Made by a program: the position numbers and the translations under genes
Shown: positions 1,762-21,488 of the stretch, one piece after another
How positions within the stretch are numbered: the first letter of the stretch is position 1
How the letters are laid out: each line of letters starts with the position of its first letter
Notes under the pieces: generated by a model
Told to the model about the DNA's origin: nothing
The model's database searches: none
What the model saw: only the letters and a program-made list of their open reading frames with translations
IMG/VR virus record: IMGVR_UViG_3300027754_000502
Span: 1-21,488 of that record
DNA length: 21,488 nucleotides
Reading direction: 5' to 3' (one strand)
Source: a virus

Positions 1762-1783
1762 ATTAGAGGAGAGGGAATCTAAT
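1762..1783 (+). promoter_or_regulatory. Inverted repeat around the ribosome binding site of the giant fibre gene
   Basis: ATTAGA (1762-1767) is complementary to TCTAAT (1778-1783). The purine-rich Shine-Dalgarno GGAGAGGG lies in the 10-base loop, and the first two bases of the ATG at 1782 lie in the stem. This could present the ribosome site or delay initiation. The stem has only one G-C pair, so stability is doubtful. Confidence 0.3.
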
Positions 1784-4700
1784 GGCAATTTCTAAAGATT
1801 TCGTTGTTAAGAACGGCCTACAGGTCGGTTCTAGTTTGCAAGTCAACTCTACTGCTACATTTTCAAACGATGTAACTATTTCTGGTAACTTAATTGTTTC
1901 TGGAACAACTACGTACGTTAATACTGCAACTTTAAACATTGCAGATAATATTGTTACACTAAACGCTGACGTATCTGGCGCAACATCTCCTACTGAAAAT
2001 GCAGGATTAGAAGTTAATCGTGGTAGTTCAGCAAACGTTCAATTGCGTTGGAATGAAACAACTGACTCATGGGAACAGTCCAATGCTGGATTAAGTGTTT
2101 ATTATAAACTCTTAGCGAACAACGATATTCTGGATAGTCTTGTAAGTACTAGCATAACTGTTGCAGCTTCAGCTAACTCAGTAAAAGCAGCATATGATAC
2201 TGCAATATCACAAGGATCAACTGCATATAGTAACGCAACTACATATGCATCAAACGCAACGAATATCTCATCTGGTACTTTAAACACTGCACGCTTACCA
2301 GCTCAAGTCAATGTAAGTGCTAATCTTAACATTGGCGCTTTTGGTACAACGAATGGTGTGAATATTCAAAACACAGCAATCATTGTTGGTAACTCAACAG
2401 CCAATGCAACAGTTGCTTATAATTTATTACAGGCTTCTAATGCTACAAGCACTGCTAATCTTTCTCCTGTTGATCTTAAGATAGGTAGCGCTATAGTTAA
2501 CTCAACTGTGTTAACTATAACCACAGTGAATGCCACTACTGTGAATGCAAACACGTCTGGTATTCATACCGGTAACGTATCAGCTACTGTTGTAAATGCT
2601 AGTGCTAATGTTAATGCTCCTTTAGTATTTGCCAATGTTACTGGTACATATGCTAATATCACTGGTCAAGTCAATACTGCAACGTTCTATGCTGCCACAA
2701 GCGCTAACGTTGGTGGTAACGTTCAAATTACAGTATCACAATATGGTATTACTGGTAACGTTACTACCGCACCAACAATGTCATTGACTGGTTCAGCTTT
2801 AACGATTGGTAACAGTTCGATCACCGGCGCACCTTCAATTAACCTAGCAAATAGTACCGGGAATACTACGGTTAATGTAACTTCTATTGGATCCAGTTGG
2901 GGTTTAATTTCAAATGCATCCGGTGTGTATCATAGTGGTCTTGTAAATGCTGCTTCTCTTACAGTTGGCTCAAGTTTCATAGCCAACTTAACTGCAATTG
3001 TAGGAACAGGTTATGCTAACGTTACCGGCGCGGTTAATGCTTCTAGTCATACTGTAGGAACTACATTTACAGCTAATGCTACGCTCGTAAATGCTGCAGC
3101 AATAAACATTGTAAACCAAACCAATACAGCCACACTTTTTGTTACTACTAGTGCTAATGTTGGTGGTAATGTACAGATTACAGTATCACAATATGGTATT
3201 ACTGGTAATGCAACTACTGTTCCAACAATGTCTCTTACTGCATCATCATTAACGATTGGCAATAGCACGGTTACGGGTGCTCCAACAATTAACCTAGCAA
3301 ATTCAACCGGTAATACTACGGTTAATGTAACTTCTATTGGAACTAGCTGGGGTCTAATTTCAAATGCATCTGGTGTGTATCATAGCGGTGTAGTTAATGC
3401 TGCATCGCACACTACTACTACAACTGTATCTAATACAACTGGATTCTTTCCAACAACGAATGCTATAGCATTAGGAAACAGCATAGGACTTTGGGTAATT
3501 TCAGCAAACAGCTTAGGCGCCAATAGTATCACTGTAACTGGTGGTAATCTTAACGCTGCTACTGTTTATGCTACTGGTCTTGTTAATGCTGCTAATTTTA
3601 CAACTACTGGTACTGTTAATACTGCCACGGTTTTTGCAACTGGACAAATAAATGCGGCATCACACACAACAACCAATAGTGTATCCAATACATCTGGGTT
3701 TTTTCCAATAAGCAATGCAGCAGTTGGAGCATTAGGAAACTCAACTGGTCTTTGGGTAGTGTTGGCTAATAGTGTTACTACTAATACTTTAACAGTTTCC
3801 GGCGGAACAATTACTTCTGGAAACGTTAATATTACTGGATATGTTAACGCTTCAGCTAACTTAGTTGCTCCTTTAGTATTTGCTAACGTATCTGCTGGTT
3901 ATGCTAACGTAACAGGTCAAGTGAATACAGTTACGTTCTTTGCAACTACATCTGCAAATGTTGGTGGTAACGTTCAAATTACAGTGTCTCAATATGGCAT
4001 CACGGGTAATGCAACCACCGTTCCAACAATGTCTCTTACTGCATCAGCATTAACGATTGGTAATAGTACAGTTACGGGTGCTCCATCAATTAACTTAGCA
4101 AATAGCACAGGTAATACTACAGTTAATGTAACTTCTATTGGATCCAGTTGGGGTCTAATTTCAAATGCATCTGGCGTGTATCATAGTGGTGCAACTGCTG
4201 TAATTAATGCTTTTAGTCATACTTCTGGTTCTGGATTTATTGCTAACTCAACTGCTATTGTTGGAACAGGATTTGCTAATGTAACAACAAGTGTTAACTC
4301 AGCGTTATTAACAGTAGGTACATCTTTCATTGCTAATACCACTGGGGCTTATCATACTGGTACTGTTAATGCTGCCAGCCATACCGTTGGAACTACATTT
4401 ACTGCTAATGCAACATTAGTTAATGCTGCTGCTATTAACGTTACTGGTCAAATTAATACAGCTACTTTGTATGCTATTACTTCTACTCCAGGATTTTATG
4501 CTGTTTATGGTTATTCAAATAGCAGTGTTGGTGTTTATGCTATATCAAACACGGGTTATGGCGTTTCAGGCACTTCAAATTCTGGCGTTGGCGTTTATGC
4601 TCAATCGAATTTTAACAATCCGTTAGTTGCCGGTAACAATACAACAACATTCATTACTATTAACAGTTCTGGTAACATGGTTGCTGCATATAATGTTAAT

Positions 4701-6254
4701 GCTGCCAACTTTGTAACTACAGGAACAGTTAATACTGCTACCGTATATGCAACTGGTACTGTTAATGCTGCTTCGTATACGGTAGGAACTTCATTCATAG
4801 CTAACTCAACTGCAATAGTTGGTACTGGTTATGCTAATGTAACTACAAGCGTTAACTCGGCATTACTAACTGTTGGTACGGCTTTTACTGCTAATGCAAC
4901 AGCTTTAGTCCATACTGGATTTGCTAATGTAACAACAAGTGTTAACTCGGCATTACTAACTGTTGGTACGGCTTTTACTGCTAATGCAACATTGGTTAAT
5001 GCTGCAGCCCTTAACGTTGTAAACCAAGTTAATACAGCTACTTTGTATGCTACTACTTCTGCTAACGTAGGAGCTAATGTACAGTTAACTACTTCACAAT
5101 TGTTTATTGGCAATAGCACAGTCAATAATACAACGAACACATCATATGCGTTTATTGGTAATTCTACCGTTTATGCTACTACAGATTTAACTGCTCCAAC
5201 AGGAACAGTAGTAGCTGAAAGATATAATACAGGATTTGATAGCTCTACTTTTGGAAAATCTGTTGTCACAACTTATAGTAATACTACCGTAACTGCTGCT
5301 AGATCGAATTATGGTCAACAATTAGTTTATAATAATTTGGGGCTGCATGCTAATTCCTTAGGTGTTGCGACTGGAGCACAATTATCTGATATTTATGGAT
5401 TTGCTTCTTTTGTATATAGTGGAAATTCTGCTAGCGGAGGTAATGCTAGAATTGATAGTATATTTGGCATACAAGCTGATGTTAGAAATTATGCAAATGG
5501 AACTACCGCTAACACAATAAACTCTGCAACTGCACTAAACAGTGTAGTAAGACAATACGGATCTGGAACAATTACTGCAGCGACTGGAATCATAGGCACA
5601 GTGACTGCAGCTAACAGTTCAGTCACTGGAGCTATTACGACCGCCTATGGCGTTAAAAGTTCTGTATCTTCTAACACGGCTATGACGATTGGTACTGCAT
5701 ATTTATTTTATGGCCAGTCACTAGGAGCAAGTCCATCAACAAATACCACAAGTTATGGTGTATATTGCACAGGAGAATCAAATAATTATTTTTCAGGAAA
5801 TATGCGAGTGTCAGGAGCACTAGGTATAACAGGTGCTCTTACAAAAGGATCTGGTACGTTCTTAATTGACCATCCTCTTGATCCTACAAATAAAGATCTA
5901 TATCATGGATTCGTTGAAGCTCCAAGATATGATTTAATTTATCGTGGAGAAGTAACTCTTGAACATGGGTCTGCTGAAGTAGATATTGACATTGCATCTA
6001 ATATGACGCCAGGAACTTTTGATGCTCTTACTCAAAATCAAAAAGTAACATCTTTGCAAAATCAAACTGGATTTGATAGGGTTAAACCATTAACTATTGC
6101 AAATGGTAAGTTTACAATCATATCAGAAAGTAATACTTCTAATGATACGATAGTTTGGGTTGTTATGGGTGAAAGAAAAGACGTGTTCATTAAGACCGTG
6201 AATAACACAGATTCTGAAGGTAGACTAATACCCGAATGGGATAAGGAGGAATGA
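1782..6254 (+). CDS. Giant modular tail fibre protein (1,490 aa)
   Basis: This is probably a long adhesion fibre subunit. Residues 1-103 form an N-terminal module known from marine T4-type phage fibres (NIADNIVTLNADVSG, NAGLEVNRG at 73-81, VQLRWNE at 86-92). Residues ~110-1135 are a repeat shaft rich in Asn, Thr, Ser, Ala and Val. It holds three 80-residue copies starting SANVGGNVQITVSQYGITGN, two copies of a GFFP...LGNS.GLWV segment, a 90-bp tandem duplication and an isolated GVYA/GVSG segment. Residues ~1140-1355 are non-repetitive and end near YGVYCTGESNNYFSGNMRV. Residues ~1356-1490 form a terminal domain with IDHPLDP, HGFVEAPRYDLIYRGEV, WVVMGERKD and a final DSEGRLIPEW, an ending I recognise from cyanophage and marine phage structural proteins. 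A strong Shine-Dalgarno precedes the start. The repeat shaft suggests length variation by recombination. Attachment function is inferred. Confidence 0.8.
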   Translation: MAISKDFVVKNGLQVGSSLQVNSTATFSNDVTISGNLIVSGTTTYVNTATLNIADNIVTLNADVSGATSPTENAGLEVNRGSSANVQLRWNETTDSWEQSNAGLSVYYKLLANNDILDSLVSTSITVAASANSVKAAYDTAISQGSTAYSNATTYASNATNISSGTLNTARLPAQVNVSANLNIGAFGTTNGVNIQNTAIIVGNSTANATVAYNLLQASNATSTANLSPVDLKIGSAIVNSTVLTITTVNATTVNANTSGIHTGNVSATVVNASANVNAPLVFANVTGTYANITGQVNTATFYAATSANVGGNVQITVSQYGITGNVTTAPTMSLTGSALTIGNSSITGAPSINLANSTGNTTVNVTSIGSSWGLISNASGVYHSGLVNAASLTVGSSFIANLTAIVGTGYANVTGAVNASSHTVGTTFTANATLVNAAAINIVNQTNTATLFVTTSANVGGNVQITVSQYGITGNATTVPTMSLTASSLTIGNSTVTGAPTINLANSTGNTTVNVTSIGTSWGLISNASGVYHSGVVNAASHTTTTTVSNTTGFFPTTNAIALGNSIGLWVISANSLGANSITVTGGNLNAATVYATGLVNAANFTTTGTVNTATVFATGQINAASHTTTNSVSNTSGFFPISNAAVGALGNSTGLWVVLANSVTTNTLTVSGGTITSGNVNITGYVNASANLVAPLVFANVSAGYANVTGQVNTVTFFATTSANVGGNVQITVSQYGITGNATTVPTMSLTASALTIGNSTVTGAPSINLANSTGNTTVNVTSIGSSWGLISNASGVYHSGATAVINAFSHTSGSGFIANSTAIVGTGFANVTTSVNSALLTVGTSFIANTTGAYHTGTVNAASHTVGTTFTANATLVNAAAINVTGQINTATLYAITSTPGFYAVYGYSNSSVGVYAISNTGYGVSGTSNSGVGVYAQSNFNNPLVAGNNTTTFITINSSGNMVAAYNVNAANFVTTGTVNTATVYATGTVNAASYTVGTSFIANSTAIVGTGYANVTTSVNSALLTVGTAFTANATALVHTGFANVTTSVNSALLTVGTAFTANATLVNAAALNVVNQVNTATLYATTSANVGANVQLTTSQLFIGNSTVNNTTNTSYAFIGNSTVYATTDLTAPTGTVVAERYNTGFDSSTFGKSVVTTYSNTTVTAARSNYGQQLVYNNLGLHANSLGVATGAQLSDIYGFASFVYSGNSASGGNARIDSIFGIQADVRNYANGTTANTINSATALNSVVRQYGSGTITAATGIIGTVTAANSSVTGAITTAYGVKSSVSSNTAMTIGTAYLFYGQSLGASPSTNTTSYGVYCTGESNNYFSGNMRVSGALGITGALTKGSGTFLIDHPLDPTNKDLYHGFVEAPRYDLIYRGEVTLEHGSAEVDIDIASNMTPGTFDALTQNQKVTSLQNQTGFDRVKPLTIANGKFTIISESNTSNDTIVWVVMGERKDVFIKTVNNTDSEGRLIPEWDKEE
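2559..2693 (+). repeat. Inter-gene repeat block, copy in giant fibre gene (partner 171-305)
   Basis: This is the partner of 171-305, with an identical 45-residue product and only synonymous DNA differences. A more diverged relative (NASANLVAPLVFANV, then ANVTGQVNT) lies around 3845-3945 in the same gene. Confidence 0.85.
2700..2939 (+). repeat. 80-residue fibre module, copy 1
   Basis: In-frame 240-bp module running from SANVGGNVQITVSQYGITGN to WGLISNASGVYHSG. Copies 2 (3150-3389) and 3 (3951-4190) have the same length with only a few substitutions. Confidence 0.9.
3150..3389 (+). repeat. 80-residue fibre module, copy 2
   Basis: This copy has the same 240-bp length as copies 1 and 3. Its part 3199-3325 matches window bases 1-127 in the first fibre gene with seven mismatches by my count, the closest inter-gene match here. 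Confidence 0.9.
3951..4190 (+). repeat. 80-residue fibre module, copy 3
   Basis: This copy has the same length and boundaries as copies 1 and 2. After it the sequence diverges (GATAVINAFSHTSG), so the conserved unit ends at YHSG. Confidence 0.9.
4831..4991 (+). repeat. 90-bp tandem duplication in the giant fibre gene
   Basis: Units start at 4831 and 4921. A 51-base stretch (4851-4901 and 4941-4991) is identical at DNA level, and the period is 30 codons (ANVTTSVNSALLTVGTAFTA). A diverged third relative lies at about 4273-4332. Exact identity suggests a more recent event than the other repeats in this gene. Confidence 0.88.
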
Positions 6255-6255
6255 T

Positions 6256-6408
6256 ATGAGTGAAGAAGACGATTACGAATGGGTTATAGACTATGAAAAA
6301 ATAGGCAAAAAAGGATATCCAATTCATTATAAAGAATATGGTATGGAACCTCCTATGAAAAGAGTTTTAAAAGAAAAAGTAAAAGACCCAGAACCAGAAC
6401 AGTCTTAA
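6256..6408 (+). CDS. Small charged hypothetical protein (50 aa)
   Basis: This short frame starts MSEEDDYEWVIDYEKIGKKG and ends KVKDPEPEQS. It begins two bases after the stop of the giant fibre gene and has a strong Shine-Dalgarno (AAGGAGGA, 6243-6250) ideally spaced from the ATG at 6256, which is the main support that it is translated. It is rich in Glu, Lys and Tyr, with no membrane segment or signal peptide. I do not recognise a family. Its position directly behind the fibre suggests a fibre-associated or assembly-helper protein, but that is inference only. Confidence 0.6.
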   Translation: MSEEDDYEWVIDYEKIGKKGYPIHYKEYGMEPPMKRVLKEKVKDPEPEQS

Positions 6409-6414
6409 TAAATA
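6407..6414 (+). promoter_or_regulatory. Late promoter element (AATAAATA)
   Basis: NATAAATA is the late promoter form seen in T4-type cyanophages; the T4 consensus is TATAAATA. It lies 24 bases before the ATG at 6439, giving a predicted leader of about 19 bases. The region is AT-rich, so a chance match is possible. Confidence 0.5.
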
Positions 6415-6438
6415 TAATAAAAATACGTAGAGATATAA

Positions 6439-6765
6439 ATGTCAACAAAAGCAAACCTAGTCTTAGATCAAGGCGCTACATTTTCATCTACTGTCACCGT
6501 TGCAGATGCTAACGGCGATGTTATGGATTTGACCAATTATACTGGTGCTGCTCAGATGCGTAGACATTATTCGTCTACAAACTCTACATCATTTGTGGTT
6601 ACAATTGCCAATTCTGGTACTGTAACGCTTTCTCTTTCTGCTAATGCTACTGCGAATATTCCTTATGGCAGATATGTTTATGATTGTGAGATCACGAGTA
6701 ATGCTGCAATTGTTACCCGAATTTTAGAGGGTATAGTTACAGTAACTCCAGAGGTAACTCGATAA
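6439..6765 (+). CDS. Small beta-sandwich structural protein (108 aa), BppU N-terminal-like
   Basis: The protein (MSTKANLVLDQGATFSSTVTV, then LTNYTGAAQMRRHYSS and a final EGIVTVTPEV) has the layout of a short immunoglobulin-like or BppU N-terminal-like domain: strand, variable loop, the phrase 'D-(L/V)-T-x-Y-T-A-A-x-Q-M-R', then strands closing with GRYVYDCEI. Similar ~110-aa proteins are common in marine T4-type phages near the fibre genes. A role in the baseplate or as a fibre adaptor is inferred. The ribosome site is weak (TAGAGAT), but a late promoter element lies just upstream. The next gene starts immediately after the stop codon (TAAATG), so the two are probably translated together. Confidence 0.6.
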   Translation: MSTKANLVLDQGATFSSTVTVADANGDVMDLTNYTGAAQMRRHYSSTNSTSFVVTIANSGTVTLSLSANATANIPYGRYVYDCEITSNAAIVTRILEGIVTVTPEVTR

Positions 6766-6963
6766 ATGGCTATACAGATTGCTGTTGATTCTGTACAAAT
6801 CATATCAACAGTCAAACCAGTTACATCTATTAAAGTGACTCCTACATCATTAACTCCTGTTATTAAAGTCACAGCGTTAAATGCTGTGCCTAAAAAAATA
6901 CAAGCAGCTTTTCTACCGGGATATGAACCTATATCTTCAGACGTAGATGGCGGGACATTTTAA
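6766..6963 (+). CDS. Small hypothetical protein ending in DGGTF (65 aa)
   Basis: The ATG directly follows the stop of the gene at 6439, and AGAGG at 6750-6755 inside that gene can serve as the ribosome site. The product is rich in Val, Thr, Ile and Pro in alternating strand-like runs (VQIISTVKPVTSIKVTPTSL) and ends PGYEPISSDVDGGTF. The next gene also ends in DGGTF, an unusual shared tail. There are no transmembrane segments or enzyme motifs. It is likely a small virion or fibre-accessory protein, but I do not recognise a named family. Confidence 0.55.
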   Translation: MAIQIAVDSVQIISTVKPVTSIKVTPTSLTPVIKVTALNAVPKKIQAAFLPGYEPISSDVDGGTF

Positions 6964-6973
6964 GGAATAGCAA

Positions 6974-8032
6974 ATGGCAAATCAAATTCTAATAAAAAGA
7001 AGTACTACAACTTCTATTCCAGCATCATTAGCGAATGGTGAATTAGCGTATACTGCTAATGGTGATACTCTTTATATTGGTAGTAATGGTCAAATTGTTG
7101 CTATTGGTGGAATTAGAAATCCGGGTGTTCTTACTTCAAATCAAGCCCTTATAGCAAATTCTACTAGTGGTATAGATAAAGTCATAACAGCTAATCTTGT
7201 ACCTACTGCCGTTTATGCAAATGGTTCTTTTGGATCTGCTGGTCAAGTTCTTACGACAAACGCTACTGGCATTTATTGGAGCACCCCTTCTGCTGGCGGC
7301 GGTACTCCAGCCGGAACAGATACTCAGATTCAATATAACAGTTCTTCTTCTTTTGGTGCATCTGCTGGCTTAACGTTTAACTATTCGTCAAATACGCTTA
7401 CTGTTTCAAATACAATATCGACTGCAAATTTAACTATCACTAATCAATTAACGGGCAATAATGCTACGTTCACTGGAAATTTAGTAGTCTCTGGTACATT
7501 AGTCACTTTAAATGTTCAAAATATTGTTGTCAATGATCCCTTAATTAAGTTAGGCGCAAATAATACGTCAACAGATGTATTAGATCTTGGTTTCTATTCT
7601 ACCTATTATACTGGTTCTACTACTGGATATAGTGGATTTTTCAGAGACGCAACATCAAAGACGTATAAACTTTTTGATGGGTTAACACAAGAACCTACAA
7701 CGACTATACTCGGTGGCGGCGGCACAGGATATTCTCAGGCTACTCTACAAGCATATATAAATGCAAGTGCTTTAGTATCCAATTCTTCAGTTACAAATAT
7801 AACTGCAAATAGCACCGTAAGTTCTACTATAGCTGCGAATACTCTTACATTGAGTACTGCACTTTCTGGAAATAATGGTGGCACAGGATTAATCTCCTAT
7901 ACATCTCAAGATATTTTAGTTGCAAATGCCACAAATGGTTTTGCTAAATTGGCTTTAGGTACTTCTGGATATGTACTTCAGTCAAATGGCACCGCACTTG
8001 TTTATGCCGCCTTAGATGGGGGAACTTTCTAA
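6974..8032 (+). CDS. Tail fibre protein with Mtd-like N-terminal domain (352 aa)
   Basis: Residues 1-45 (MANQILIKRSTTTSIPAS, NGELAY at 21-26, DTLYIG at 31-36) match the style of the N-terminal fold of the Bordetella phage tropism determinant Mtd, widespread at the start of phage fibre and baseplate proteins. Residues ~88-105 hold the common linker SAGQVLTTNATGIYWSTP, also present in the next gene. Residues ~169-245 (NLVVSGTLVTLNVQNIVVND, then DPLIKLGANN, GFFRDATSKTYKLFDG) are related to the N-terminal module of the giant fibre but carry different details. The end is QSNGTALVYAALDGGTF. The ribosome site is TAAGGA at 6961-6966. Virion surface location and host contact are inferred. Confidence 0.7.
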   Translation: MANQILIKRSTTTSIPASLANGELAYTANGDTLYIGSNGQIVAIGGIRNPGVLTSNQALIANSTSGIDKVITANLVPTAVYANGSFGSAGQVLTTNATGIYWSTPSAGGGTPAGTDTQIQYNSSSSFGASAGLTFNYSSNTLTVSNTISTANLTITNQLTGNNATFTGNLVVSGTLVTLNVQNIVVNDPLIKLGANNTSTDVLDLGFYSTYYTGSTTGYSGFFRDATSKTYKLFDGLTQEPTTTILGGGGTGYSQATLQAYINASALVSNSSVTNITANSTVSSTIAANTLTLSTALSGNNGGTGLISYTSQDILVANATNGFAKLALGTSGYVLQSNGTALVYAALDGGTF

Positions 8033-8074: not shown

Positions 8075-8833
8075 ATGGCAAATAAGATTCAGATAAAAAG
8101 AACTTCGGTTACAGGTCGTACTCCAAATACGACTAATGCAAATAATACTGCATATATTGATGCAGGTGAATTAGCGTTAAATCTCACTGATGGTAAATTA
8201 TTTTCTTCTAATGGAACTGCTTATTTTGAAGTTGGATCAAATCTACAAAATATTTCAATTACTGGCAATACGACAACCACAGGTATTATAGCAAACGGCT
8301 CTATAGGTTCTGCTGGACAAGTATTAACCTCAAACTCAACTGGGATTTATTGGGCGTCTCCTTCGGCAGGATCTCTTTCCAATGCTAATTCAGTACTGAC
8401 TTCGACAGCAAATGGAACGACATTTACTACTGGATATTTTTCTGCATTAGGCGATGCTATTCAAAAAACTTATATCCTCAGAGGAATCACGACTAACGCT
8501 ACAGAAACTGAAATCTTTTTAGATGGATCTTATAGAATTCCAGTCAATACAAATACTACTGTATTCTATACAGTTGATATTGTTGCAAGAAGAACTGATG
8601 CTATCAATGAAGCAGCGGCATTTCATCTTAAAGGAGCAGCTGATAATTTTTCAGGAACTACAGCAGATGTTGGTAACATATTTGAAACTATTGTTGCAAG
8701 AGACGATGCAAGATATGCAGTAGATGCTAGAGCAAACAACTCTACTGATACGATAAATATATATGTTACTGGAGTAGCAGCAAAAACTATACGCTGGGTG
8801 GCATACGTCATGACAGTAGAGGTATCGCAATAA
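8075..8833 (+). CDS. Tail fibre protein with Mtd-like N-terminal domain (252 aa)
   Basis: Residues 1-50 (MANKIQIKRTSV, AGELALN at 30-36, DGKLFSSNG) have the same Mtd-like start as the gene upstream. The linker SAGQVLTSNSTGIYW (79-93) is nearly the same as in that gene. Residues ~133-252 form a distinct C-terminal domain: TEIFLDGSYRIPV, VDIVARRTDAINEAAAFHLK, VARDDARYAVDARA, INIYVTGVAAKTIRWVAYV. I recognise this ending as common in marine phage fibre proteins. The start has a good Shine-Dalgarno (AAAGGAAG). The final base of the stop codon is the first base of the next ATG. A role in host recognition is inferred. Confidence 0.72.
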   Translation: MANKIQIKRTSVTGRTPNTTNANNTAYIDAGELALNLTDGKLFSSNGTAYFEVGSNLQNISITGNTTTTGIIANGSIGSAGQVLTSNSTGIYWASPSAGSLSNANSVLTSTANGTTFTTGYFSALGDAIQKTYILRGITTNATETEIFLDGSYRIPVNTNTTVFYTVDIVARRTDAINEAAAFHLKGAADNFSGTTADVGNIFETIVARDDARYAVDARANNSTDTINIYVTGVAAKTIRWVAYVMTVEVSQ

Positions 8834-9306
8834 TGGCAAGATTACGAGGTCTGTTGATTGATAATTCTGCTGACATAGGATCGATTTATACTAATATTGC
8901 AGCAACAGCAAATGCTACTCCTTCTAAAACTATTTCTACTGGTGTAGCTAAACAATTTTCAGTTCAAATAAAGGCACCGGGGACAGCAGTTCAACTTTTT
9001 AATAGCGCAAGTGCATGGACATCACCATCTAGTGTATCCATAACAAGTGTTTATGCAGTTTTATTACAAAAACTTACAAGCGATATAACATATCCAACTG
9101 GAAAAGATCTAATATTTAGATTAAGAATACAGCCAAATAGTGGTTCAAGAACAGACAATTATTTTACAATACCAGTTAATACTACTTCTCTTACTCAATC
9201 ATTTAGTTATGATTTAGCAGTAAATGATAGAGTTTTTGTTGACGTAACACAGATTGGTTCTATTAGACCGGGATTGGGATTAACTGTTTATGTAAGATAC
9301 ATATGA
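8833..9306 (+). CDS. Hypothetical virion-associated protein (157 aa)
   Basis: This protein overlaps the preceding fibre gene by one base (TAATG), and AGAGG about 11 bases before the ATG can act as ribosome site. It begins MARLRGLLIDNSADIGSIYT and is rich in Ser, Thr and Val with alternating polar and hydrophobic residues, suggesting beta strands throughout. It ends PGLGLTVYVRYI. No catalytic motif, signal peptide or membrane helix is visible. I do not recognise the family. Its place among fibre genes and the translational coupling suggest a small structural or fibre-tip protein. Confidence 0.6.
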   Translation: MARLRGLLIDNSADIGSIYTNIAATANATPSKTISTGVAKQFSVQIKAPGTAVQLFNSASAWTSPSSVSITSVYAVLLQKLTSDITYPTGKDLIFRLRIQPNSGSRTDNYFTIPVNTTSLTQSFSYDLAVNDRVFVDVTQIGSIRPGLGLTVYVRYI

Positions 9307-9313
9307 GGAAACT

Positions 9314-9502
9314 ATGAGTATAGAAGACATAAAAAATTATTTTCATAATTATCCAGTTTATACTTTTTCTGGATCAAAAGAAGAATTACAGTGTATCGTG
9401 GGCACAAATTTTTCTATGTTAATTGTCGAAGACAAAGTTTATTTTAGCATATTATCAGAAGATTCTCTTGCATGTTTTGATGAAAGAATGGAGTTAATTT
9501 AA
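9314..9502 (+). CDS. Small hypothetical protein (62 aa)
   Basis: The start has a clear Shine-Dalgarno (GAGGA, 9304-9308) and the stop overlaps the next ATG by one base (TTTAATG), which supports translation. Composition differs from the neighbours: acidic and aromatic (MSIEDIKNYFHNYPVYTFSG, SKEELQCIVG, KVYFSILSEDSLACFDE) with two cysteines and no Asn/Thr repeats. It looks like a small soluble alpha/beta domain rather than a fibre part. No family recognised; it could be a chaperone or regulator for the next gene, but nothing in the sequence proves this. Confidence 0.55.
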   Translation: MSIEDIKNYFHNYPVYTFSGSKEELQCIVGTNFSMLIVEDKVYFSILSEDSLACFDERMELI

Positions 9503-10629
9503 TGTACGCAAAATTAGTTGCAACTGCTAATGTCAATCCATGTTTGTTAATACGAGATATAGTTCGTTTATGCACTTCTGATACGCCTAATACAACTTTA
9601 ATTAGTGGATTTTCAAATACATCTAGTGTAGTAATCGATCCTACTCCTGCTGGTTGGACGTATGTCTATAGCACAGCAGATACTACAACATTACAGCCTG
9701 CATCGAATGCTACTATTAATAATACTACTGCTTATGAGTGGTGGGCTATGAGTGCTCCATGCTTAGGTCCATTATCAGGTAATGCTACATTAAAGTATGC
9801 AAAACTTACAACTGTTGGTGCAGGAACGGCTAATAGTATTGCAACAAATACGTTATCTGGTTTTGCATTGACTGGAGCAGCAAATATACAAACATCTTCA
9901 GTAACAAATGAAGGCACTAGAAGAGGCGCAAATGGCACATCAGCAGCCAGTTTTCCATTATATGCGTGGGGATCTGCAACATATCATTTAATTGCCACTC
10001 CTAGACATGTAACGTTAATTAGAGAAGGTTATAATTATCAAGGAGTTTGGGAATATGCATTCACAGATGTCCATTCATTTTATACCACATCTTCTCCTTT
10101 TTTACAAATAAATCATGGTGGAGAAAACGGATCTAATAACACAACATCCGCTGCAAATACTGGACCAGCAGATCCAGTATACACGACCACTACGGCATTT
10201 AATACGCAATCTAACATTAGTAATTTAAATACGCAAAATTTCGGTTCTTATACATCATGTTTATTTAATGTTACGGTTCCTAGTACAGGTGTTTCGTATG
10301 GTTCATTATCATTAGGTATCATGCAAAATATGTCAATGCTAACAGCCAATAATCTATTAGCTTTTCAGCCATATCTTTTTAATTATGGAAGATTATCTTC
10401 GGTTAATAGTACAGGTGCAACTCGAAATCTTTTAAATCCTATTTTTATAAATGGAGGTTCAATAGGTCATCCTACTTTAGACGTTTCTACTACATCTAAG
10501 ATTTATAACGTTAAAGCAGGAATAGCTTCTACTGGTGATAATATTGATATTAATGGTACTACATACACATTTTTTAATTCTGGCACCTCATCTAATAATG
10601 GTCTTGCTTTAGTTATGACAACGAGTTAA
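9502..10629 (+). CDS. Hypothetical structural protein (375 aa)
   Basis: The gene starts on the last base of the previous stop, with TGGAG as ribosome site. The N-terminus is MYAKLVATANVNPCLLIRDI. Visible features are an aromatic patch (TAYEWWAMSAPCLGP at ~76-90), a central segment with basic and aromatic residues (RHVTLIREGYNYQGVWEYAF), and a Ser/Thr/Asn-rich second half. It lacks the 80-residue modules and terminal domains of the other fibres. It is the last sizeable gene before the neck module, the place where T4 has fibritin (wac), but it shows no coiled-coil pattern and I do not call it fibritin. It is likely a virion protein of unknown function. Confidence 0.6.
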   Translation: MYAKLVATANVNPCLLIRDIVRLCTSDTPNTTLISGFSNTSSVVIDPTPAGWTYVYSTADTTTLQPASNATINNTTAYEWWAMSAPCLGPLSGNATLKYAKLTTVGAGTANSIATNTLSGFALTGAANIQTSSVTNEGTRRGANGTSAASFPLYAWGSATYHLIATPRHVTLIREGYNYQGVWEYAFTDVHSFYTTSSPFLQINHGGENGSNNTTSAANTGPADPVYTTTTAFNTQSNISNLNTQNFGSYTSCLFNVTVPSTGVSYGSLSLGIMQNMSMLTANNLLAFQPYLFNYGRLSSVNSTGATRNLLNPIFINGGSIGHPTLDVSTTSKIYNVKAGIASTGDNIDINGTTYTFFNSGTSSNNGLALVMTTS

Positions 10630-15176: not shown

Positions 15177-17291
15177 ATGGCATTTCAAGTAAGTCCCGGA
15201 ATTAATGTATCCGAAATTGAATTAACCACAATAGTACCTGGCGCAGCCACCACAGAAGGTGCTTTTGCTGGCGTATTCCGTTGGGGTCCAATAGATAAAC
15301 TAGTCCTTGTAGATTCAGAAGAAAAATTGGTTGCTCGGTTTGGAAAACCAACCAGTTTTAATCCAGAAACATTCTTTACTGCTGCAAATTTCTTATCATA
15401 TGGCAATCAACTTTTTGTAAGTCGTGCAGCAAATACAGCAGATGCAACCGGCGCTACCGGTGTTCTTTCTGCTATGGCAAATAGCACCTCAATTACCAGC
15501 AACTTAGTTCATCTAGTTCTCAATGCTGATGATTATGATACAAAAATTGCAAGTTTTGAATCTGGCGTTCAGTTCATTGCTAAGTATCCTGGTGCACTAG
15601 GAAACTCACTTAAAGTTTCTGTTTGCAGTGCTGCTAATCAATACACACAAACCATCGATTTTCTTTCTGGCAATACTGTTGGCACTGCCAATACATCATT
15701 CGGTAATGCAACCGCTACAAAGATTGATTTTACTGTTGGTACCAATACTGCCACTATTTCTTTGGTAAATACTGCTGTTTTGACGGGTAGTACTCCTGTA
15801 CCCTATGCAAATACAGTTGCAAACCTATTCTCAATTGGTGATATTCTAGAAGTAGGTAACAGTTCAATTGGTAAGCAATATCTTAAAATTTCAAATGTAA
15901 GCATTCTTGTAAATAATACAGCCGGTACAAATACTGGTTCTGCAACAATTACAGTAAGTCTTGCTTCTAAATTTATTCTTTCTTCAGATTATAGTTCAAA
16001 TACTGTCGTAAGAAATTGGGAGTATTTTAATAGTGTAGATTCTGCGCCAGGTCGATCAGAATTTGTTGCTAATTTTGGTAACACCGCAGCCAACGATGAA
16101 TTGCATGTAGTTGTGGCTGATGAAGATGGTAAGTTTACTGGTGTACCAGGAGCAATTCTAGAAGTTTATAAAGGTCTATCACGCGCAACAGACGCAAAGA
16201 CTAATGATGGAACAGGCAATTATTACAAGACTGTTCTAAATGATAATTCAAATTACATTTGGTGGGCAACTGATCGTTCAGGCGCAGTATCTAATACAGC
16301 AGTAAACATTATTTCTTCAACAAATTCAAAGCCATCAACTCTTTCATTTGTTAATGGTTCTGATGGCGCTGATGAAAGCACAATCACTAATGCTGCTCTT
16401 TCTCTTGCGTATGATAAATTTAAGTCTGCAGAGGATGTTGATATTTCTTTACTATTACAAGGTAAAGCAAGAGGATCTGCCGGCAATCAATATGCACAAC
16501 TTGCAAATTATTTGATTGATAATATTGCTTCTGTTCGTAAAGATTGCGTAGCTTTTATTTCGCCTGATCGTGCTGACGTTGTTCAGAACTCAGGTAAAGA
16601 TGAAGCACAAGATATTGTGGATTTCCGCAATGCACTTACCTCTACTTCATATGCAGTACTTGATTCTGGATATAAGTATCAATATGATAAGTATAATGAT
16701 GTTTATCGTTATATTCCACTTAATGGTGATATGGCTGGTTTGGCTGTTCGTACAGATAGTGTAAGAGATCCTTGGTATTCACCAGCTGGATTCAATCGTG
16801 GTCAAGTTAAGAATGTAATTAAACTTGCTTACAATCCAAGTAAAGCTGATCGTGATCTTCTTTATAAGAACGACGTAAACCCAGTAGTTACTTTCCCAGG
16901 TCAAGGAACAGTTCTTTACGGCGATAAGACTCTACTCGGTGCTCCAAGTGCTTTTGATCGAATCAACGTTCGTCGGTTATTCATTGTTCTCGAGAAGACT
17001 ATTGCACGTGCTGCTAAGGGTCTACTCTTTGAATTCAATGATGAATTTACACGGGCTCAGTTCAAGAATATTGTTGAACCTTTCCTCAGAGACGTCAAAG
17101 GAAGACGTGGAATCTATGACTTTAAGGTAGTGTGTGATAGCACAAATAATACCCAAGGAGTCATTGATAGAAATGAGTTTGTAGGTGACATCTACGTTAA
17201 ACCTGCTCGTGCAATTAATTATATTCAATTGAACTTTGTTGCAGTGCGATCCGGCGTAGAATTCTCTGAAGTAGTTGGTCAGGGTTTTTAA
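15177..17291 (+). CDS. gp18: Tail sheath protein gp18
   Basis: This is the contractile sheath subunit, present in many copies around the tail tube. The N-terminus MAFQVSPGINVSEIELTTIV and the following GAFAGVFRWGP are classic for T4-type gp18. The C-terminal core is also conserved: INVRRLFIVLEKTIARAAKG (596-615), FEFNDEFTRAQFKNIVEPFL and a final region with FVGDIYVKPARAINYIQLNF. Length is 704 aa against 659 in T4. The extra length lies in the central protruding part (about residues 90-300), which is rich in Asn, Thr and Ser and differs in character from the conserved ends. A dedicated late promoter and a strong Shine-Dalgarno fit high expression. Confidence 0.95.
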   Translation: MAFQVSPGINVSEIELTTIVPGAATTEGAFAGVFRWGPIDKLVLVDSEEKLVARFGKPTSFNPETFFTAANFLSYGNQLFVSRAANTADATGATGVLSAMANSTSITSNLVHLVLNADDYDTKIASFESGVQFIAKYPGALGNSLKVSVCSAANQYTQTIDFLSGNTVGTANTSFGNATATKIDFTVGTNTATISLVNTAVLTGSTPVPYANTVANLFSIGDILEVGNSSIGKQYLKISNVSILVNNTAGTNTGSATITVSLASKFILSSDYSSNTVVRNWEYFNSVDSAPGRSEFVANFGNTAANDELHVVVADEDGKFTGVPGAILEVYKGLSRATDAKTNDGTGNYYKTVLNDNSNYIWWATDRSGAVSNTAVNIISSTNSKPSTLSFVNGSDGADESTITNAALSLAYDKFKSAEDVDISLLLQGKARGSAGNQYAQLANYLIDNIASVRKDCVAFISPDRADVVQNSGKDEAQDIVDFRNALTSTSYAVLDSGYKYQYDKYNDVYRYIPLNGDMAGLAVRTDSVRDPWYSPAGFNRGQVKNVIKLAYNPSKADRDLLYKNDVNPVVTFPGQGTVLYGDKTLLGAPSAFDRINVRRLFIVLEKTIARAAKGLLFEFNDEFTRAQFKNIVEPFLRDVKGRRGIYDFKVVCDSTNNTQGVIDRNEFVGDIYVKPARAINYIQLNFVAVRSGVEFSEVVGQGF

Positions 17292-17927: not shown

Positions 17928-19448
17928 ATGGCAAGCATTTTTGGATTTCAATTTAAGCGTAAAAAAGACGAAGTAGTTTCTTTTGCGCCTCCAGTCTTTG
18001 ATGACGGTGCCGTTGCAGTTGCTGCAGGCGGCGCTTATGGCACTTACGTTGATCTTGAAGGATCAGCTAGGTCTGAAGCAGAACTCGTTACTAAATATCG
18101 AGAGATGGCAATGCATCCTGAAATTGATGCTGCTGTCTCCGATATTGTGAATGAAGCAATCTCCGATGAAGAAGATAAAGGTGCCGTTCATCTTAATCTA
18201 GAAAATCTTCCAGTTGCACCAAAGATTAAAGATCTTATTACTGCTGAATTCAATTATCTTCTTGAACTATTTGAATTCAATACAAGATCCTATGATGTAT
18301 TTCGTCGTTGGTATGTAGATGGTCGCTTAGTCTATCATGTTATCATTGATGAAAAGGCACCACAGAATGGTATTAAAGAATTACGATATGTAGATCCACG
18401 TAAGATTCGTAAAGTACGTGAGATGAAAAGAAAACCAATTGCTGATTCTGGTGTTTCTGTTACTCAAGTAGAATCAGAATATTACATTTATAATGACAAG
18501 GGATTCCAAACAAATATCTCTGCTACTTCAAATGCATTTGGCTCAAATGGATTAAAGATCTCAGCTGATGCAATCCTTGGAGTCAACGCCGGTATTCTTG
18601 ATAAGAATAATCAATTAGTTCTAGGTCATTTACATAAGGCTATTAAAGCTTTAAACCAACTTAGAACTCTTGAAGATGCTACACTTATCTATAAGATTTC
18701 ACGCGCACCAGAGCGTCGGATATTTTATATTGATGTAGGTAATCTTCCAAAGATGAAAGCTGAGCAATATCTTCGTGATATTATGACTCGTTTTAAGAAT
18801 CGTGTAGTTTATGATTCATCTACTGGTGAAGTTCGAGATGATCGTAAATTTATGACAATGTTAGAAGACTTTTGGTTACCACGTCGAGAAGGTGGCCGAG
18901 GTACTGAAATCTCAACTCTTCCTGCTGGTCAATTATCCGGTGATCTTGAAGATGTTAAGTATTTTCAACGTAACCTTTATAAATCATTAAATGTTCCTGT
19001 CAACCGACTTGAACCTGATAACACATATACGATGGGTCGTGCTACGGAAATTACAAGAGACGAAGTTAAGTTTACTAAGTTTGTTTCAAGACTACAAACT
19101 AAGTTTAGTGAACTATTTCTTGATGCATTAGAGAAACAGTTAGTCTTAAAGAGAATCATTGCACCAGAAGAATGGCCTTCACTTGCAAACAAATTTAAGT
19201 TTCAGTATTCTAAAGATAATCAGTTTACTCAGCTTAAACAATTAGAAATCATTCGTGAAAGAAATACTATAATGTCTGAAACTGATCCATATGTTGGTAA
19301 ATATTATTCAACCGAATGGATTAAGCGAAATGTATTACGTCAAGATGAAGATGAAATGCAAACCGTAATGACCCAAATAAATAATGAAATCAAAGCTGGT
19401 ATTATACAGTTGGCTCCACCTCCTGGCGAAGAACCACCAAAAAAGTAA
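17928..19448 (+). CDS. gp20: Portal vertex protein gp20
   Basis: The 506-aa protein (524 in T4) forms the 12-subunit portal through which DNA enters and leaves the head and from which head assembly starts. Family-type features are YVDLEGSARSEAELVTKYRE (42-61), MHPEIDAAVSDIVNEAI (63-79), FRRWYVDGRLVYH, LRYVDPRKIRKVRE, and the stem/crown region ISRAPERRIFYIDVGNLP. NVPVNRLEPDNTYTMGRATE followed by ITRDEVKFTKFV is strongly conserved in T4-type portals. The ribosome site is weak (GTGGAA), and no late promoter lies between the upstream terminator and the start, so expression probably depends on read-through. Confidence 0.95.
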   Translation: MASIFGFQFKRKKDEVVSFAPPVFDDGAVAVAAGGAYGTYVDLEGSARSEAELVTKYREMAMHPEIDAAVSDIVNEAISDEEDKGAVHLNLENLPVAPKIKDLITAEFNYLLELFEFNTRSYDVFRRWYVDGRLVYHVIIDEKAPQNGIKELRYVDPRKIRKVREMKRKPIADSGVSVTQVESEYYIYNDKGFQTNISATSNAFGSNGLKISADAILGVNAGILDKNNQLVLGHLHKAIKALNQLRTLEDATLIYKISRAPERRIFYIDVGNLPKMKAEQYLRDIMTRFKNRVVYDSSTGEVRDDRKFMTMLEDFWLPRREGGRGTEISTLPAGQLSGDLEDVKYFQRNLYKSLNVPVNRLEPDNTYTMGRATEITRDEVKFTKFVSRLQTKFSELFLDALEKQLVLKRIIAPEEWPSLANKFKFQYSKDNQFTQLKQLEIIRERNTIMSETDPYVGKYYSTEWIKRNVLRQDEDEMQTVMTQINNEIKAGIIQLAPPPGEEPPKK

Positions 19449-19468: not shown

Positions 19469-19756
19469 ATGGCAGAAGTAATTGATTTAGTTAAATATGC
19501 TGCTGATAATCAGCCAATAGATTTTGGTTCTACTTTTAAAGAACTACTTGGTCAAAAAGCATTAGAAATAATAGACGCACAAAAACAAGAAGTCGCAGTT
19601 TCGATGTTTGGTAATGATCCAGATGAAGATGATTTTGATGATGAAGAACTAGAACAAACTCTTGATGATATTGAAGTAGATGATTTGGAAATTGATGATG
19701 AGATCGAATTATTTGACGACGATATAGAAACCGGAGAAGAAGATGAAGACTATTAA
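19469..19756 (+). CDS. Acidic prohead core protein, gp67-like
   Basis: The 95-aa protein has two parts: a mixed N-terminal half (MAEVIDLVKYAADNQPIDFG, then FKELLGQKALEIIDAQKQEV) and an intensely acidic C-terminal half with repeated Asp/Glu runs (DEDDFDDEELEQ, DLEIDDEIELFDDDIETGEE). T4 gp67, the small core protein immediately after portal gene 20, has the same size class, two-part layout and position, so I call this gp67-like. In T4 the protein joins the scaffold and is cut by the prohead protease. Here only F23-K24-E25 loosely fits the cleavage rule. The stop overlaps the next start by 14 bases, linking production of the two proteins. Confidence 0.6.
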   Translation: MAEVIDLVKYAADNQPIDFGSTFKELLGQKALEIIDAQKQEVAVSMFGNDPDEDDFDDEELEQTLDDIEVDDLEIDDEIELFDDDIETGEEDEDY

Positions 19757-21488
19757 AGACATCATAGAGCTCTATAAGCCTAAGTCAGCTGACGAAGATC
19801 GATTCGTCAAGAAGCACGTTATTAAGAAAACAGAAGATGCTAATGGCAATAAAGATGATGTCTTTAATGCAACCAATGTTAAGCCTACAGAACGTACACC
19901 TAAGCACGGCTATAACCCAGGTGAAGATGAACAAGTGTATGAAGGTTATGAAGAAATTAGATTTGATGATCCAGAAAATAATTCTAAACCATCTGGTTCA
20001 ACACGTGATTCACGGAGTCGCAGTGAACGTATTGATGCCGAAATGAATAAATTAGGAAATCAATATGGTCGTAAAAATTTAGCTTCAAAAATTAAAAAGA
20101 AATATAGCACTAAGAATGAAGAAACTGTTAGTGAAGACACTCACACAGATCATTTTAGATTTCTTCTTCCTTTACAGAAAGCCGGAGTTCCTGCTCCTTC
20201 TAAAGAAAGAGCTATGGACTTAATTGCTAAGCACGGCGATCCACTTAGAGCCGGTCAAGCGTATGTTGATCGATATAAGAAAATTAAGAATGCGGCTAAT
20301 AAAGTTCAAAAAGAAGAAACTGAACTTGATGAAGCAAGCACTGGAAAACCTCGTTCTAGTCTATATGTTGGAACTGTGTCGCGCAGTGATCCTGATTATA
20401 ATCAAAAAATTGGCGAATTAAAGAGTAGAACTGTTGGTGGCCACCGCATTCGTGGTCGTGCACCTACATCAGAGTATAAGCATCTTTATGCAGTTGGTGG
20501 AAAACTTCATCGTTATAGCTCACAAGATATTAAACCTGAACACTCGTCTCACGTTGATGTTTATTCACGCAATCCAATGAAAGAAGAAGTTGAACCGCTT
20601 GACGAAGCAAGAAGAAAATTAAGTCCAATTGAAAAGCTTTTCAATCGTCCATCAATGCAATTTGCAAAAAAATACACTAATAAAAAATCAGCTGATGAAA
20701 TAAAGATGGAACGTCTTGGGTTTCCAGCACGTCATCTTCCTAAAGATGGAACTGACACCGGAACAACTTCTTCATTAGAAGGAAAAGCAAAACAGGGAAA
20801 GATTGAAGACGTTGCAAAGCGTACAATGCAGAATAATTCATATGAGTCAGAAGGTCAGCAACTTAATGAACTAGTTCTCAATCCATTCCTTAGAGGTCTC
20901 TTAGAAGCAACATGTAAAGAATGTGGCAAGACATATAAAAAGGGTGGTTCATGCTCATGCTGCATGAAAGAAGACTCACAGATTGATGAATTATTTGGTA
21001 TTGGTGATACAATTGGAAGAGCTTATGATGCGGTGGAGCGTGGAGAAAATAAATTTTTCACTGCTGGTGCACGCTTTATGAACAAAATTGCGACAAAAAG
21101 TCGCACTATGGATCAACAAGCAGCGGCAGCCCGCAAAGGCGATAGTGAACCAAATATAACTAACTATAGCTCTAAAGGAGATATCGCTCGCTTGCGAACT
21201 AAAGATATATCTAAAGAACCTTTAACTAAAGTTCCTAGCCCTCAGCGTAAGCTAATTCAACCACCTAATTTTACACCTGGCGCGCCAAATTCTCTATCGG
21301 TAATAAAGCCGCAAAAGCCATTATCAACGGTATTACAAAATCCTAGTACTAAAGTAAAGTCTGGTATTTTGCCAACAAGAATGAAAGAAGACGTTCAGCT
21401 TGATGAGATTCTAACTCCTTCAATGGGTGCTGGTGCATATATTGATGACTTTGTTAATTCAAAAGATCCAAAGTTTGCTGGTAAATCT
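19743..21488 (+). CDS. Long prohead-associated protein with repeated [L/I][D/N]E motifs (3' end beyond window)
   Basis: The frame is open for 582 codons to the window end. The ATG overlaps the gp67-like gene by 14 bases and has GGAGAAG (19733-19739) as ribosome site. The N-terminus MKTIKDIIELYK resembles the capsid-targeting sequence of T4 internal proteins (MKTYQEFIAEA). Residues ~19-70 form a conserved-looking head (DRFVKKHVIKK, NGNKDDVFNATNVK, HGYNPGEDEQVYE). The rest is basic and low in order, punctuated by KEETELDEA (190-198), KEEVEPLDEA (280-289), SEGQQLNELV (369-378), KEDSQIDELF (409-418) and KEDVQLDEIL (548-557). These end in [L/I]xE, the T4 gp21 protease rule. A cysteine cluster lies at 391-407. 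The place matches T4 gene 68, but size and structure do not. A core or internal-protein precursor is inferred. Confidence 0.7.
   Translation, partial: MKTIKDIIELYKPKSADEDRFVKKHVIKKTEDANGNKDDVFNATNVKPTERTPKHGYNPGEDEQVYEGYEEIRFDDPENNSKPSGSTRDSRSRSERIDAEMNKLGNQYGRKNLASKIKKKYSTKNEETVSEDTHTDHFRFLLPLQKAGVPAPSKERAMDLIAKHGDPLRAGQAYVDRYKKIKNAANKVQKEETELDEASTGKPRSSLYVGTVSRSDPDYNQKIGELKSRTVGGHRIRGRAPTSEYKHLYAVGGKLHRYSSQDIKPEHSSHVDVYSRNPMKEEVEPLDEARRKLSPIEKLFNRPSMQFAKKYTNKKSADEIKMERLGFPARHLPKDGTDTGTTSSLEGKAKQGKIEDVAKRTMQNNSYESEGQQLNELVLNPFLRGLLEATCKECGKTYKKGGSCSCCMKEDSQIDELFGIGDTIGRAYDAVERGENKFFTAGARFMNKIATKSRTMDQQAAAARKGDSEPNITNYSSKGDIARLRTKDISKEPLTKVPSPQRKLIQPPNFTPGAPNSLSVIKPQKPLSTVLQNPSTKVKSGILPTRMKEDVQLDEILTPSMGAGAYIDDFVNSKDPKFAGKS

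Follow-up and report, generated by a model that had tools for sequence, protein, structure and literature searches.

What does the gene that follows the portal and gp67-like genes of this T4-like phage encode, and why does a series of nearly stereotyped acidic motifs punctuate its product? The window is the whole virus record of 21,488 bases and covers part of a T4-like phage genome. The first genes are of tail-fibre-like and neck type, followed by terminase, sheath, tube, portal gp20 (17928..19448, on the + strand like all other parts of the window placed below; PHROG 213 portal, E 5e-196) and an acidic, small core protein gene of gp67 type (19469..19756). The gp67-like ORF has only weak PHROG matches, a "prohead" family among them, but occupies the same slot in relatives. 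The gene under study (19743..21488) overlaps it by 14 nt and has 582 visible codons; its 3′ end is cut by the contig end, and comparison with relatives L006 and L008 indicates that about 19 C-terminal residues are missing. Relatives that run further contain the missing end, a protein of ~123 aa, and then gp21, gp22 and gp23. Because the gene is flanked by portal and gp67 on one side and by gp21 in relatives on the other, it lies in the slot of T4 gp68, between gp67 and gp21. A small ORF (~80 to 140 aa in most relatives) is conserved between the gene and gp21 in nearly all relatives, and the copy at L006:9119-9490 has no family match. Elsewhere, the window encodes a structural protein of 1,490 aa that is rich in Asn, Thr and Ser and contains many internal repeats nearly identical to one another (1782-6254; ANVTGQVNTATFYA..., NLANSTGNTTVN...), and the adjoining ORFs 3-839 and 851-1759 encode proteins of this type as well.

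Five acidic motifs are present in the visible protein: KEETELDE (residues 190-197, window 20310-20333), KEEVEPLDE (residues 280-288, 20580-20606), SEGQQLNE (residues 369-376, 20847-20870), KEDSQIDE (residues 409-416, 20967-20990) and KEDVQLDE (residues 548-555, 21384-21407). The next residue is A after the first two, L after the third and fourth, and I after the fifth. An earlier sequence-only reading had recognized all five, but it extended their ends one or two residues too far and assigned them a three-residue spacer, where two or three residues are found. Its judgment that the raw count of [L/I]xE in this protein is near chance agrees with our counts (8 seen vs 4.8 expected, P = 0.09). So does its view that the KEE/KED context is the stronger signal: the extended motif, a pattern picked after inspection of the window sequence, occurs five times in the window protein and not once in 20,000 shuffles. 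When a similar pattern was tested on 83 non-redundant complete relatives, we found 129 occurrences against a shuffle mean of 0.0. The shorter pattern [LIV][DEN]E is likewise in excess, both in the window protein (5 vs 1.3 expected, P = 0.008) and in the 83 relatives (371 vs 97.8 expected, SD 9.4). Across 266 boundary sites, the motif profile is about E-E-x-E-[QE]-[LIV]-[DE]-E (P8 E 63%, P7 E 79%, P5 E 68%, P3 L 45%, I 41% and V 12%, P2 D 66% and E 26%), with E at P1 by definition.

These motifs mark the ends of the parts into which the protein can be divided. Profile alignment delimits a conserved N-terminal domain (residues 1-67, 19743..19943) that ends in DEQVYE, and the DNA of relatives L005, L007 and L008 parts from that of the window at 19943/19944, exactly at the end of this domain. 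A variable segment follows (residues 68-131, 19944..20135) and ends in NEETVSE; DEQVYE and NEETVSE are thus weaker motifs that add at least two module boundaries to those formed by the five motifs above. Module 1 (residues 132-197, 20136..20333) is a helical mini-domain ending in KEETELDE, and module 2 (residues 198-288, 20334..20606) ends in KEEVEPLDE. Module 3 (residues 289-376, 20607..20870) ends in SEGQQLNE, and the short module 4 (residues 377-416, 20871..20990), which is Cys-rich (CKECGKTYKKGGSCSCC) and zinc-ribbon-like by inspection, ends in KEDSQIDE. Module 5 (residues 417-555, 20991..21407) ends in KEDVQLDE and is followed by a C-terminal module of family m3 (21408..21488, GAGAYIDDFVNSKDPKFAGKS...), which is truncated by the contig end and runs on as KEKRRQMALAAYYAAKRGK in L006.

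Comparison with relatives revealed that the gene is a mosaic, with module boundaries exactly at the motifs in many relatives. The relatives share an architecture in which the conserved N-terminal domain of ~67 residues is followed by a differing middle and by one of a few C-terminal modules. With zero to six interior modules per chain among the 83 non-redundant complete relatives, the polyprotein departs from the one-cargo-per-precursor arrangement of the T4 IP/Alt type, and its size ranges from ~150 to >790 aa among otherwise similar phages. When the proteins of 81 relatives were cut at the motifs, 690 of 951 cross-protein matches between interior segments (73%) were full length on both sides, compared with 17 to 21% when the cuts were shifted by 10 residues, 5 to 7% when they were shifted by 30, and <1% for random cuts. 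At the DNA level, 21 of the 26 breakpoints between the window and its relatives fall inside motif spans, which make up 17% of the gene. BLAST alignments also stop most often at the motif Glu itself (offset 0: 38 of 524 ends, 7.3% vs 1.5%), and they most often start 8 to 12 residues ahead of it, since the motif is part of the alignment; we treated this as a partial breakpoint signal only and replaced it by the segment-coverage and DNA tests.

Relatives with 98% identity over 6.6 to 8.6 kb lack exactly one whole module. Module 2 is precisely absent from L002 (98.5% identity over 6.6 kb), as it is from L003 and L004, and module 5 is precisely absent from L006 in the DNA alignment to the window. 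The flanks of L002, L003 and L004 are ~98% identical to the window; their chain has only 246 aa and ends in HLPKEKR-stop, without the usual C-terminal module. Module 2 is found again, flanked by motifs, in a divergent lineage whose polyproteins have a different N-terminal domain (L216 to L222), at 58 to 64% identity, and one short fragment reaches 76%. In that lineage, polyproteins with module 2 are up to ~1,058 aa long (longest ORF) and lie in the same portal-gp67-X-gp21 slot. Clustering of interior segments at 50% identity, which we used because 30% single-linkage merged several module families into one (m0), gave 21 families and 54 singletons, and the common families each have several different neighbours. 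Homologues were expected to keep the motifs at conserved places. Since modules come and go as entire units, the motif positions shift from one relative to another, but the motifs stay at the module ends.

The interior modules have a mean length of 73 residues; with the motif excluded, 98% of them are net positive, with a median net charge of +8. The segments between motifs had been described as poorly structured. This description fits most of the chain, where pLDDT is below 60, and both AlphaFold models are mostly of low confidence; however, residues ~133-197, which end in the first motif, form a confident helical mini-domain (pLDDT 84 to 96). The best Foldseek match of the window model in the PDB has an E value of 1.3. 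The window protein belongs to no curated Pfam or NCBIfam family, has one weak match among PHROGs to a family of unknown function, and gives nothing at E 1 in a tblastn search of 50,697 phage records; neither a known conflict domain nor a peptidase domain of its own was found in Pfam, PHROGs or NCBIfam. Among the units of relatives, an EF-hand-like stretch has sub-threshold Pfam matches only. A 233-aa chain segment in L008:3035-4813 carries a LysM motif (SYTVQKGDTLDRISK; Pfam LysM 1e-7), which is unusual in a presumed head-internal protein.

The beginning of the chain suggests where it may go. Polyprotein N-termini such as MKTLKDFLE, MAKTLKDFLNE and, in the window, MKTIKDIIE (19743..19769) resemble MKTYQEFIAE of T4 IPII and IPIII and MKTFKEF of IPI. 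The first ten residues of IPIII are enough to target a protein into the T4 head (PMC9026906; PMC5694885). Under a pattern that was defined after inspection and shows resemblance only, 55 of the 83 relatives have such a start, and 72 have one within the first 45 residues; among 987 other ORFs there are only 4, and two of these encode cytidylyltransferases. The tripeptide IIE (residues 7-9), previously listed with a caution as a further [L/I]xE site, instead closes this segment as an IxE site; many other polyprotein N-termini read FLE or FME in place of L/I-x-E. The N-terminus looks like a T4 capsid-targeting sequence, and it may direct the chain into the prohead core.

Similar starts also occur outside the polyprotein gene. 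Clustered on the - strand of L205 (G006:C1:14000-28000) are genes at 3188-3556, 3557-4057, 6316-7857 and 8287-10173 with starts such as MKTFIEFINE... and MKSFKSFINE..., and this cluster includes a chain of modules, 513 aa long, that has several motifs, as well as a cytidylyltransferase-like protein of 628 aa that starts MKSFLELVKE. In L211 (G007:C1:1-20000), which shares its contig with the close relative L006, small proteins at 5958-6668 (+), 7618-7866 (-) and 15675-16157 (-) start MKSFIEFLEE, MKSLNDFVEE and MKTLKEIINE, and are further candidates for head-packaged proteins.

T4 gp21 cuts after L/I-x-E, and its substrates gp22, gp67 and gp68 yield several fragments (PMC9026906; PMC5694885). 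The window ends before gp21, but the expectation that the genome would encode a gp21-type protease is borne out in near-identical relatives (L002, 98.5% identical, and L006), where a Peptidase_S77 gene (E 5e-37) lies just downstream. The gp21 of relatives keeps the T4 gp21 motifs GELxHP and GVSxRGxGS. The gp23 of relatives reads L-G-E or L-A-E at the processing site of T4 gp23. The 266 boundary sites have L, I or V at P3 and E at P1; some module ends, with V at P3 or reading VYE or VSE, depart from the L/I rule as it strictly applies in T4. No protein of the 128.8-kb record G001 has more acidic-context motifs than the scaffold gp22 and the polyprotein, with five each. We consider it highly probable that the polyprotein is cut by gp21 at the acidic motif sites. 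The proposal of the sequence-only reading, a precursor with multiple gp21 cuts, gains from the coincidence of motifs and module boundaries, the T4-like N-terminus, and the downstream Peptidase_S77 with its conserved active-site motifs, all of which point the same way; the modular shuffling and the capsid-targeting-like start were absent from it.

Unit-type proteins are also encoded by cultured phages: P-TIM68 gp159, S-SKS1 82, Cr30 gp064, S-CREM2 ORF160 and S-SCSM1 gp029 are chains of small basic units with ends of the L/I-x-E type. Of these, S-CREM2 ORF160 was found in virions (7 peptides, 13.1% coverage; PMC10665884). S-SCSM1 gp029 is annotated in its record as "virion protein", and 45 virion proteins of S-SCSM1 were identified by mass spectrometry (PMC9602691). 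These virion-linked cyanophage proteins are related to the window gene in kind, via P-TIM68 gp159, and are not its orthologues. The S-CREM2 cytidylyltransferase, which starts MKNFSSFLTE-AD, was likewise found in virions (PMC10665884). Module chains of Cr30, P-TIM68, SynMITS9220M01 and S-CREM2 (L094, L095, L097 and L214) lie near cytidylyltransferase genes, and three of these cytidylyltransferases start MKSFTSFFTEA, MKNFFQFLSEA or MKNFSSFLTEA. Record G001 also has a second module-chain gene, far from its head cluster (L199, G001:C1:20001-40000, 8775-10238), which encodes 487 aa with LSKATMGRYINKA-type units.

With moderate confidence, we propose that the gene encodes a modular head polyprotein, whose products would be packaged as cargo and probably delivered. 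The capsid-targeting-like N-terminus would bring the chain into the assembling prohead core, where the gp21-type serine protease would cleave the repeated acidic [LI]-x-E motifs on the C-terminal side of their Glu. The cuts would free a set of small proteins, mostly basic but with an acidic tail at the C-terminus of each, that would share the head with the DNA and probably pass into the host. The set of modules would be exchanged between phages at motif boundaries, and any inserted unit would thus be released automatically. More tentatively, we conjecture that the gene could serve as a plug-in delivery array, in which host-acting units are swapped at head-protease sites, cut in the prohead and injected with the DNA. 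In that case, one gene slot would hold a rapidly changing set of early-acting proteins.

The main rival to the cargo reading is that the gene encodes a core protein of the gp68 type, whose fragments, once cut by gp21, are disposable and leave the prohead before DNA packaging, so that module variation is neutral. The gene shares its slot with T4 gp68, a basic protein whose gp21 fragments are mostly lost from the head (PMC9026906), so position does not imply retention. However, sequence kinship to gp68 is not established (a four-sequence search scored 9.2 bits at best, and hhalign gave a probability of 0.6%), and the wide size range of the polyprotein fits a stoichiometric core part poorly. Its modules also keep recognisable families, LysM and Cys-rich units included, and proteins made of similar units were found in cyanophage virions. 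We therefore regard disposable core pieces as unlikely.

Two other explanations dispense with cleavage. The chain could stay intact as one long core protein with the modules as its domains, and the motifs could be docking or linker elements for scaffold, portal or DNA-binding partners. The motif does exceed, in both length and acidity, the minimal L/I-x-E that gp21 needs, but a hydrophobic P3 with Glu at P1 is the pattern of a gp21 site, gp21 acts in the same compartment, and the other G001 protein with as many motifs is gp22, a classical multi-cut substrate; an intact chain thus seems improbable. Alternatively, the motifs could be mere recombination joints, short repeated DNA for swap or deletion with no role at the protein level, as module gain and loss does break at motif DNA. 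Within a gene, motif copies have a codon identity of 0.65 vs 0.60 expected from codon usage, and third codon positions differ between copies in half of the cases. Because the copies share codons about as codon usage predicts, conservation is at the level of the peptide and not of the DNA, which makes this last explanation very improbable.

If the cargo reading is right, the slot beside gp21 marks the place at which aquatic T4-like phages store small proteins that evolve fast and are packaged in the head; the majority of these proteins lack annotation. Because the boundaries can be read from sequence, the mature fragments can be predicted and searched for in virion mass spectrometry, and the cargo carried or injected by T4-like phages other than T4 would become a list of testable units. 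The gene would also show that a DNA phage can use polyproteins in its head, with gp21 sites doubling as exchange points.

Processing by gp21, capsid-targeting sequences and multi-cut core proteins are already known. A gene for exchangeable basic units joined by head-protease-type sites was not found in the open-access papers searched. The polyprotein resembles T4 gp68, together with gp67 and gp22, in its slot between gp67 and gp21 and in its basic character, and gp21 cleaves gp68 at L/I-x-E to give several fragments (PMC9026906, PMC5694885); unlike the polyprotein, gp68, with 141 aa, is not known to be built from exchangeable units in mosaic fashion. T4 IPI, IPII, IPIII and Alt carry an N-terminal capsid-targeting sequence of ~10 residues, to which we liken the polyprotein start, and the IPs are basic, head-internal proteins, many of which enter the host on infection. 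Each IP, however, consists of one short propeptide and one cargo, whereas the polyprotein has many units behind one targeting segment. In SPN3US and phiKZ, head proteins are cut by a gp21-like protease with Glu at P1 and several sites per protein (PMC5694885), but the extra sites are in propeptides, and a chain of exchangeable units is not described there. The cyanophage and Cr30 module proteins that we viewed lie outside the gp20-gp21 cluster, and their records call them hypothetical, virion or DUF6321 proteins. Polyvalent proteins (Iyer et al. 2017) combine several domains in one polypeptide that is believed to undergo packaging and delivery together with the DNA, and some are thought to be autoprocessed (PMC5512222). 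While polyvalent proteins have large enzymatic domains and often their own peptidase, the units here are small, and the head protease would cut them apart.
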